Assembly: GCA_028686055.1 (NCBI GenBank)
Contig: JAQUCU010000003.1
Coordinates: forward strand, 1-42,667
From: Desulfuromonadaceae bacterium
GTDB taxonomy: Bacteria; Desulfobacterota; Desulfuromonadia; Geobacterales; Pseudopelobacteraceae
DNA length: 42,667 nucleotides
Direction: 5' to 3'
Part shown: piece by piece, positions 14,536 to 35,947 of the stretch
Numbering within the stretch: the stretch's first letter is position 1
How the letters are laid out: the number at the start of each line of letters is the position of its first letter
Notes under the pieces: generated by a model
Databases searched by the model: none
What the model was told of the DNA's origin: nothing
What the model saw: the letters and a program-made list of their open reading frames with translations, nothing else
Position numbers and translations under genes: made by a program

Positions 14536-15621
14536 TTATTTAAAATGGTTGAAACCCTCTTTTTGAGCGACGTACCGACTGCCGTCCGGATTTACAGCCG
14601 TTACCCCGGAAAATCTTGTTACTATACCAACACGTGTTACCGCAATGCCACATTTTTTCAAGCAGTCGACAACTTTTTCCCGGTTGGAGCTGTCAGCAGT
14701 AAAACAGAGTTCGTAGTCTTCTCCTCCGGAAAGCGCCAGGTGGAATGGAAATATCGGGAGAGATTCGGTCTGCCTGCAAAAGCTTTCGGAAAGTGGGAGA
14801 CAATCAAGGCGGATGCAGCCGCCGACACCCGATTGCTCGGCTATATGGCCGTAATCAGCCAGAATGCCGTCACTGACGTCGATCATCGCGGTAGCCAGAC
14901 CGGCTTCAGCCAGTGCCAGAGCAGCAGAAACCCGAGGGACCGGATCGAGCAGGCGGGAGAAAAGGTAATCCCTCCCTCCGACTCCGCTCAGGGAACTGCG
15001 TGATGGTAGAGAACTATTTATTGCCCCGGTATTACCAGACGAATGAATTGAGTCCAGCGGCTGAGCGGAGCCGAAGCCACTCTCCAGCAGCTTCAACCCA
15101 AGCGCAGCATCACCGAGCGTGCCGGTCACCCATATATCATCGTCCGGCATCGCACCGGAACGCCGCACAATCCGGTCAGGGTGCTGTTCACCCATTATGG
15201 TTACCGAAACAGTCAGCCCCGTGCGTGATGAGCAGGTATCGCCACCGATCAGGGCAACCCGTTTTTCTGCTGCCATTTCCAGAAAACCACGCATAAAATC
15301 ATCTATAAAGTCCAGCGGGAGCATAGATGGAATAGCCAGGGACAGAAGCGCCCAGCAGGGGATTCCTCCCATGGCCGCAATATCGGAGATACTGACGGCC
15401 AGAGATTTGCGCCCCAGCCGGTAGGGGTCATGCCAGGCACGGCGGAAATGGACATCCTCCAGCAGCATGTCGGTGGACGTCAGCAGCTGCATCCCGGGTG
15501 AAATTGCAGTGACTGCGGCATCGTCACCGATGCCGGTGATAACACTTTCAGGCGCAGAAACTCGGTCAGCAATGCGTGATATCAGGCCGAATTCGCCAAG
15601 ATTAGCTAATGAATGGGTCAC
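14536..15621 (-). CDS. thiL: Thiamine-monophosphate kinase ThiL, with a repeat-derived internal insertion
   Basis: ThiL phosphorylates thiamine monophosphate to the active cofactor thiamine diphosphate. Family motifs are present: LGEFGLI near the N-terminus, GIGDDAA, LLTSTDMLLEDVHF, SDIAAMGG, GGDTC, VTGTLGDAALGLKLL, DVSDG and LSGGEDYEL. The frame is open to 15984, but a TACAAT-type promoter lies inside it and the family begins at the segment after the GTG at 15621, giving 361 residues; no good Shine-Dalgarno is visible there. Compared with E. coli, about 20-25 extra residues lie between the GDAALGL helix and the RLLDPVPRV segment. That insertion is encoded by an imperfect palindromic DNA repeat (14974-15076). 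The fold should tolerate a surface loop there. Confidence 0.92.
   Translation of the reverse strand: MTHSLANLGEFGLISRIADRVSAPESVITGIGDDAAVTAISPGMQLLTSTDMLLEDVHFRRAWHDPYRLGRKSLAVSISDIAAMGGIPCWALLSLAIPSMLPLDFIDDFMRGFLEMAAEKRVALIGGDTCSSRTGLTVSVTIMGEQHPDRIVRRSGAMPDDDIWVTGTLGDAALGLKLLESGFGSAQPLDSIHSSGNTGAINSSLPSRSSLSGVGGRDYLFSRLLDPVPRVSAALALAEAGLATAMIDVSDGILADYGHIAEQSGVGGCIRLDCLPLSESFCRQTESLPIFPFHLALSGGEDYELCFTADSSNREKVVDCLKKCGIAVTRVGIVTRFSGVTAVNPDGSRYVAQKEGFNHFK
14974..15076. repeat. Imperfect inverted-repeat element translated inside ThiL
   Basis: Two arms, CCCTCCGACTCCGCTCAGGG (14974-14993) and CTGAGCGGAGCCGAAG (15061-15076), are inverted relative to each other (14 of 16 paired bases) and flank about 67 bp. 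The element is in frame and encodes a Ser/Gly-rich stretch that other ThiL proteins lack. The same 20-base core recurs with one difference at 35292-35311. Confidence 0.75.
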
Positions 15622-34792: not shown

Positions 34793-35947
34793 GTGACCGG
34801 CATCGACATCAGCAGAATCCTCCGCATATCACCCTCGCCAGCCTATGTGGTGGACCTGGGGAGAGTGCGTCATAACCTGGCGGTTCTGGACGACGTGCAG
34901 CGGCGCAGTGGCGCCAGGATTCTGATGGCGCTGAAGGCCTTCTCCATGTGGAGTATTTTCCCGCTCATCAGCCATACGCTGCAGGGTGTCTGCGCCAGTT
35001 CCCCCTGGGAAGCACGCCTGGGGCGGGAAGAGTTCGGCGGCGAGGTGCACAGCTTCGCCGCCGCCTTCAAGGAGAGCGATGTAGTTGAACTGCTCCGGAT
35101 CTCCAACCATCTTGTTTTCAACTCCTTTGGCCAACTGGAACGTTTCCGCCCATTGTGGGAGAAGGAACAGGGACGGGTTTCGGTCGGCCTGCGGGTCAAC
35201 CCGGAACACTCAGAAGGGCATACGGAGATCTACGACCCCTGCGCTCCCAACTCACGCCTCGGCATTCCCCGCCGGGAGTTCGAAGGAAGATCCCTGAGCG
35301 GAGTCGAAGGGCTGCATTTCCACACCCTCTGCGAGCAGCTCTTTGAGCCACTGGAACGGACGGCAAGGGTTTTTGAAGAGCGCTTCGGCGAGTTTCTGCC
35401 GGGGATGAAATGGATCAACTTCGGCGGCGGGCACCACATCACCCGCGAAGGGTACGACATCGACGGGCTGGTGGATCTGGTCAAGTACTTTCGAGAGAAA
35501 TACAGGCTTACGGTCTACCTTGAACCGGGCGAGGCGGTCGCAATAGGTACCGGCATCCTGGTGGGAGAGGTCCTTGATGTGGTCAACAACGGCGTGGATA
35601 ACGCCATCCTGGACGTATCCGCCACCTGCCATATGCCTGACATCATCGAGATGCCCTACCGCCCCGTCATCGATGGCGGCTTCGACCCCGGTGAAAAACC
35701 GCACACCTACCGACTGGGAGGAGCCTCCTGTCTTGCTGGTGACATAATCGGCGACTGGTCATTCGAGAAGCCGCTCCGTCCGGGCGACAGGCTCGCTTTT
35801 GAGGACATGGCACACTATACGATGGTGAAGACCACCACCTTCAACGGCATTCAGCACCCGCACATCTGCACCTTTGAACCGGAAAGCGGGGAGTTGAAGG
35901 TGGTACGCAGCTTTGGCTACGAAGATTTCAAACAGAGACTTTCATAA
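34793..35947 (+). CDS. nspC: Carboxynorspermidine/carboxyspermidine decarboxylase-like (NspC)
   Basis: This PLP-dependent decarboxylase removes CO2 from the product of the preceding dehydrogenase-type enzyme, giving spermidine, norspermidine or aminopropylagmatine. The 384-residue protein shows the PLP lysine K48 in MALKAFSMWSIF, NSRLG near 151, the GLHFHTLCEQ motif near 170-179, NFGGGHH near 210, EPGEAVAI near 244 and the catalytic-region CHMPD near 280. The start is GTG with GGGGA about 10 bases upstream. Codons for LSGVEG just before GLHFHTLCEQ are encoded by a 20-base sequence nearly identical to the repeat in thiL. It follows the secreted small-protein gene by 14 bp. Confidence 0.93.
   Translation: MTGIDISRILRISPSPAYVVDLGRVRHNLAVLDDVQRRSGARILMALKAFSMWSIFPLISHTLQGVCASSPWEARLGREEFGGEVHSFAAAFKESDVVELLRISNHLVFNSFGQLERFRPLWEKEQGRVSVGLRVNPEHSEGHTEIYDPCAPNSRLGIPRREFEGRSLSGVEGLHFHTLCEQLFEPLERTARVFEERFGEFLPGMKWINFGGGHHITREGYDIDGLVDLVKYFREKYRLTVYLEPGEAVAIGTGILVGEVLDVVNNGVDNAILDVSATCHMPDIIEMPYRPVIDGGFDPGEKPHTYRLGGASCLAGDIIGDWSFEKPLRPGDRLAFEDMAHYTMVKTTTFNGIQHPHICTFEPESGELKVVRSFGYEDFKQRLS
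35292..35311. repeat. 20-base repeat core inside nspC, matching the ThiL element
   Basis: CCCTGAGCGGAGTCGAAGGG is the reverse complement, with one mismatch, of 14974-14993 inside thiL. It is in frame and codes for residues at a position where relatives have similar L-x-G-(I/V)-x-G residues, so it may be partly coincidental or conserved by fit. Confidence 0.6.

Follow-up and report, generated by a model that had tools for sequence, protein, structure and literature searches.

A REPIN-like element, in which two inverted REP hairpins enclose a spacer, very likely lies in frame within the thiamine-monophosphate kinase gene (thiL) of a Desulfuromonadaceae bacterium. We place almost as much confidence in the whole explanation, namely that the element sits in a surface loop where ThiL tolerates extra residues and that it is translated in frame with the rest of the enzyme. 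The window, that is, the whole stretch of DNA that was analyzed, comprises 42,667 nucleotides. Relatives used for comparison were genomes of the same genus together with named Geobacteraceae and Desulfuromonadaceae metagenome-assembled genomes.

An in-frame segment in a disordered loop of ThiL

The gene and the parts of its insert are located as follows.

14536..15621, minus strand: thiL, thiamine-monophosphate kinase; 361 aa, GTG start, intact ORF
14974..15075, minus strand: thiL insert, 34 residues (183-216), 102 bp; absent in relatives with loops of 13-16 aa; pLDDT <50 at residues 184-214
15058..15078, minus strand: left REP arm, GGC-stem type, GGCTTCGGCTCCGCTCAGCCG; encodes GFGSAQP
14995..15057, minus strand: spacer between the arms; only arm fragments match elsewhere in the genome, and the spacer has no second copy
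14974..14994, minus strand: right REP arm, CCC-stem type, TCCCTGAGCGGAGTCGGAGGG; encodes SLSGVGG

The protein matched PDB ThiL chains in a sequence search (E 7e-63) and contained AIRS and AIRS_C domains, and Foldseek comparison of its predicted structure returned ThiL as the top match in every case; the AIRS fold, the ThiL sequence similarity, and the conserved residues of this class are thus all present. The insert (FGSAQPLDSIHSSGNTGAINSSLPSRSSLSGVGG) keeps the reading frame open throughout and sits between helices at residues 171-179 and 215-225, with conserved flanks and an otherwise intact protein. In the AlphaFold model, which had a mean pLDDT of 86.8, it is predicted to form a disordered loop in a confident fold, in agreement with the exposed loop that a first-pass annotation, made from the letters alone, had anticipated. 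That annotation had also noticed inverted arms agreeing at 14 of 16 bases around the segment, and these are real: the 16-mers at 14976-14991 and 15061-15076, at the ends of the insert, are 88% complementary, and no second pair of this kind occurred within thiL or in 12 codon shuffles of the gene. Its estimate of 20 to 25 extra residues, by contrast, was too low, although the segment does lengthen ThiL; the loop has 46 aa compared with 13-16 aa in insert-free relatives, hence about 31 net extra residues. No target duplication was seen at the insert, the longest word common to the two flanks being 4 nt.

It is extremely improbable that the insert is an assembly or binning artefact. The draft genome is fragmented (306 contigs) and has an estimated contamination of 3.45%, but the insert is interior to a 42.7-kb contig and equivalent inserts occur in many independently assembled genomes.

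A dispersed family of REP hairpins

The genome was searched with CTGAGCGGAGYCGAAG, allowing up to 2 mismatches and using the reversed sequence as a control. This search recovered 19 arm sites, 8 of them exact, compared with 3 in the control, and the T form of the arm, at up to 1 mismatch, had 12 sites compared with 0. Each thiL arm lies within one base of this genome-wide repeat; the right arm is identical to the consensus arm at 20 of 21 bases, and the left is the CTGAGCGGAGCCGAAG variant, the same variant core being found at C188:355 and C120:7638. Several of the genomic copies are inverted doublets as in thiL. Some are intergenic (for example, C160:525-572), as had been suspected for further copies in the first-pass annotation, and others fall in genes: within an hsdM-type methylase, in frame (C188:355-430); within a type I restriction R gene, as a single arm in frame (C188:7133); in an interrupted R-like reading frame (C188:4410-4451); and in the C-terminal end of a probable ROK-family gene (C279). 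The type I restriction genes of this genome (hsdM, hsdR, and hsdR-like; L009, L011, and L016 on G000 C188) thus carry REPs.

Across the genus, the REP core was found in 30 of 39 genomes, with 0-33 copies each (reversed control, 0-1), and beyond the genus exact cores had a patchy distribution among genera of the order. Doublets at genus loci were in inverted -+ order in 55 of 59 cases and never in +- order. The hairpin loop, TGAGCGGAGTCGAA, is constant and the flanking 3-bp stem varies by compensation: stem pairs 1, 2, and 3 are formed in 101, 95, and 90 of 106 REPs, compared with shuffled means of 79, 48, and 40, and ten different perfect 3-bp stems were observed, including CCC/GGG, GGC/GCC, and TGG/CCA. 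A GTAG or CGTC tag was found within 14 bases on the 5' side in only 1 and 4 of 108 REPs, respectively, and the family is accordingly described as untagged.

The thiL segment is built like a REPIN (REP doublet), with two inverted REP hairpins and a spacer. A translated, mobile palindromic repeat of the Rickettsia type had been proposed for it. The dispersed palindromic repeat in an open frame was found as proposed, although its anatomy is that of a REPIN without the GTAG/CGTC tag; the repeat is presumably mobile.

The same loop in related species

The loop between the GDAALGL and RLLDPxPRV motifs is the most variable part of ThiL, ranging from 13 to 58 aa. Short loops (13-16 aa), often with a native motif of the LLENGETVSDELLS type, occur in about 15 species, so that the segment is missing in many species of the same genus, as had been expected of at least some close relatives. 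The two observations that the first-pass annotation had named as speaking against a mobile insert, conservation of the segment in all relatives and lack of other copies in the genome, were both checked, and neither was made. In 11 sampled species the loop holds a REPIN, identical in orientation and frame in all of them, which reads (G)-F-(D/G/N)-S-(A/T/S)-Q-P ... S-L-S-G-V-E-G or a near variant. Its suggestion that such inserts are rarely noted in this group was an understatement, given how frequent in-frame copies are across the genus and how many species have this very ThiL loop occupied.

A G-rich palindromic repeat unrelated to the REPIN fills the loop in about five other species, with translations such as SPPFQGEGQGG; in G033 this repeat has six copies in the genome, one of them exactly in thiL. 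The G-rich palindrome (AAGGGGAGGGTCAGGGTGGGG type) was detected in 22 of 39 genus genomes and lies in frame in the thiL loops L029, L039, L078, L082, and L085, the last being a record in which most of the loop is hidden by a stretch of N beside a possible G-rich palindrome. Further ThiL loops had no clear origin.

A native, selected extension of ThiL whose DNA resembles the repeat by chance would be compatible with the intact protein and its conserved flanks. We consider it very improbable: the arms are within one base of the genome-wide repeat and covary as hairpins, its dispersed copies contradict a native origin, and the loop is hypervariable and predicted to be disordered.

How often the loop was occupied

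The ThiL protein tree was poorly resolved, and an rpoB DNA tree was therefore used. On this tree the REPIN loops are scattered, and well-supported branches force at least four changes of REPIN state; G031, which has a REPIN in thiL, lies within a 100/100 clade whose other three members lack the insert. Between species, arm codons at identical residues were the same in 92% of comparisons, a figure that is inflated by the choice of copies for their likeness to the repeat, compared with 50% in the remainder of thiL. A co-inherited neutral segment would hardly have turned up in this comparison at all. Because the arms keep the codons of the repeat, they were probably acquired or refreshed recently. 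Together, the scattered pattern on the rpoB tree and the identity of arm codons favor repeated acquisition along with recombination among repeats, and we think it rather likely that the thiL loop acquired a REPIN repeatedly, not once, within the genus.

A single ancient REPIN insertion in the ancestor of the genus, with arms homogenized by gene conversion and with loss or replacement in the species with 15-aa loops, is the main alternative. It would account for the identical position, orientation, and frame in 11 of 11 REPIN-type loops, for the significant traces of decayed arms kept in the G028 loop (and perhaps for arms decayed in that of G013), and for the arms and spacer that the sister species G022 and G011 have in common. 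Against it, the insert-free species share a conserved native loop, which precise deletion would not have recreated, and G031 is alone among its three insert-free relatives. Spacers look unrelated by eye between most species, and the sister of the window's species, G006, has no significant trace of either arm. We judge this single-insertion history to be unlikely, though not negligible.

Repeated acquisition, on the other hand, is not easily reconciled with independent random insertion, as all sampled thiL REPINs (GFDSAQPP...SLSGVEG) share one orientation and frame, an agreement rarely expected by chance. This agreement is poorly explained. The element may prefer this site, selection may favor a single frame, or parts of thiL may have passed from one species to another. 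One further cause considered for the common frame, that unoccupied thiL loops natively contain a TGAGCG seed, was rejected, since short-loop species have GTT TCA codons at that place and no such seed.

The greater closeness of the arms to the repeat than of codons elsewhere in thiL could also be read as a sign that the insert is kept for a role at the DNA or RNA level (as an mRNA-stability hairpin, a protein binding site, or a transcription attenuator), and is not merely harmless. In other bacteria, REPs have been proposed to act in supercoiling, termination, and mRNA stability (PMC3733652). In thiL, however, the whole insert folds no more stably than its shuffles (z -0.78), it has no match in Rfam, and it is absent from many relatives, which makes such a role improbable.

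In-frame copies in other genes

Among 62 repeat clusters sampled from six relatives, 36 lay within spanning reading frames, in contrast to the mainly extragenic placement expected of REPINs. All 20 of the spanning frames that were scanned matched Pfam families, although a few of these frames may have repeat-like sequence of native origin. The matching genes encode cobyrinate synthase (CbiA), NuoL-like antiporter subunits, an MmeI-type methyltransferase, HsdM, HsdR, RNase R, TilS, HypF, NuoG, MacB, and ketosynthases. As with Rickettsia palindromic elements, the repeats are thus in frame in otherwise normal conserved proteins (thiL, hsdM, and hsdR here, and others in relatives). In nspC, cbiA, the NuoL-like gene, hsdM, and the MmeI gene, two or more species carry the repeat at a matching position. 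Different species carry a REPIN at the same inter-domain or loop position in CbiA (L186 and L219) and in the NuoL-like subunit (L192 and L231), and the hsdR gene of G017 (L187) contains two in-frame REPINs.

The window itself holds one further REP-like sequence.

35291..35312, plus strand: REP-like arm TCCCTGAGCGGAGTCGAAGGGC in nspC (34793-35947); encodes RSLSGVEGLHFH; probably native coding sequence

The core at window position 35294 was considered as a second inserted REP and set aside; it is most likely native, because relatives hold RSLxGVEGLHFH at that place, with the core at 0-6 mismatches. In several species, this one included, the native nspC sequence equals the right REP arm exactly, and in at least five (G029, G015, G010, G002, and G032) a left REPIN arm and a spacer have been added beside the native arm. 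The nspC genes of G034 and G007 have insertions of similar length that are diverged. A similar arm in a cytochrome c-like gene of three species (L199, L223, and L234) looks native and was left out of the insert count.

More tentatively, an untagged REPIN family of Geobacteraceae-type bacteria may systematically enter fixed loops of core enzymes (thiL, nspC, cbiA, the NuoL-like subunit, and hsdM), at a position that is constant across species and, in thiL, with constant orientation and frame as well, through site preference or through recombination with a REP-like seed. Such a family would repeatedly supply proteins with new disordered segments, a possibility that we consider less likely than not.

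Spread and persistence of the element

No Y1_Tnp transposase was found in this genome, whose assembly is 98% complete. In REP-rich relatives, none of the matches listed placed a Y1 gene adjacent to REPs, the nearest being about 1.5 kb away (G017:C197). An association of the RAYT/REPtron kind was accordingly set aside as far as these listed matches go.

We propose that the REPIN spread as single-stranded hairpin DNA, with a transposase acting in trans, and that a copy came to lie in the permissive surface loop of ThiL, where it would be translated in the cell as part of the enzyme. Many other landings would have been purged by selection. The thiL insert would survive where the loop tolerates about 30 disordered residues and the kinase is not blocked, and repeated occupation of the same loop probably reflects several independent insertions, along with arms renewed when they recombined with other copies. 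We saw no sign of a positive function of the insert peptide.

Comparison with known translated repeats

Papers containing the arm 14-mers, or relevant to such repeats in Geobacter, were not found in the searched literature, which covered few subscription papers, and the report on intragenic REPs (PMC3733652) does not mention Geobacter. REPINs were described as REP doublets that form hairpins (Bertels and Rainey 2011, PMC3116915). The present family resembles them in that two REPs lie inverted on either side of a spacer in a fixed order, changes are compensatory, copies are dispersed, and singlets also occur. Unlike REPINs, the repeats of the thiL type are often intragenic and in frame, have low copy numbers (0-33 per genome), and have no RAYT gene adjacent among the matches listed in the compared genomes.

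REPs with GTAG or CGTC tags and REP dimers have been reported inside ORFs, where they code for 20-30 aa, and recB of two Xanthomonas species carries different REPs at about the same site (BMC Genomics 2013, PMC3733652). REPs or REP dimers in ORFs and an insertion site shared across species (there recB) are common to both systems. Here, by contrast, the repeats are untagged, and in many species one and the same loop harbors a repeat of one of two families.

Rickettsia palindromic elements (RPEs), repeats of about 150 bp in obligate intracellular bacteria (summarized in PMC10969869), are likened to the thiL element by description only: both are palindromic repeats in frame in unrelated genes and predicted to be compatible with protein structure. 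The host here is not an obligate intracellular Rickettsia, and the thiL insert, at 102 bp, is shorter than an RPE. RU elements, small mobile repeats in frame within enterobacterial ORFs (Delihas 2007, PMC2759123), are similar, again by description, as small repeats read in frame within genes, but their units are longer (103-168 bp) and MITE-like.

The results suggest that in-frame palindromic repeats extend beyond obligate intracellular Rickettsia and the few REP-rich genomes described. In this genus, a single enzyme loop is found empty, with fresh or decayed copies, or with a second repeat family, so that an old question, how a mobile repeat turns into protein sequence, can be traced stepwise and tested by a simple enzyme assay. 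Translated palindromic repeats as such are already known from Rickettsia RPEs, intragenic REPs of several free-living bacteria (PMC3733652), and RU elements; judged against the searched literature, two things are new, this repeat family in its present setting and the finding that two unrelated repeats have repeatedly come to occupy one enzyme loop.
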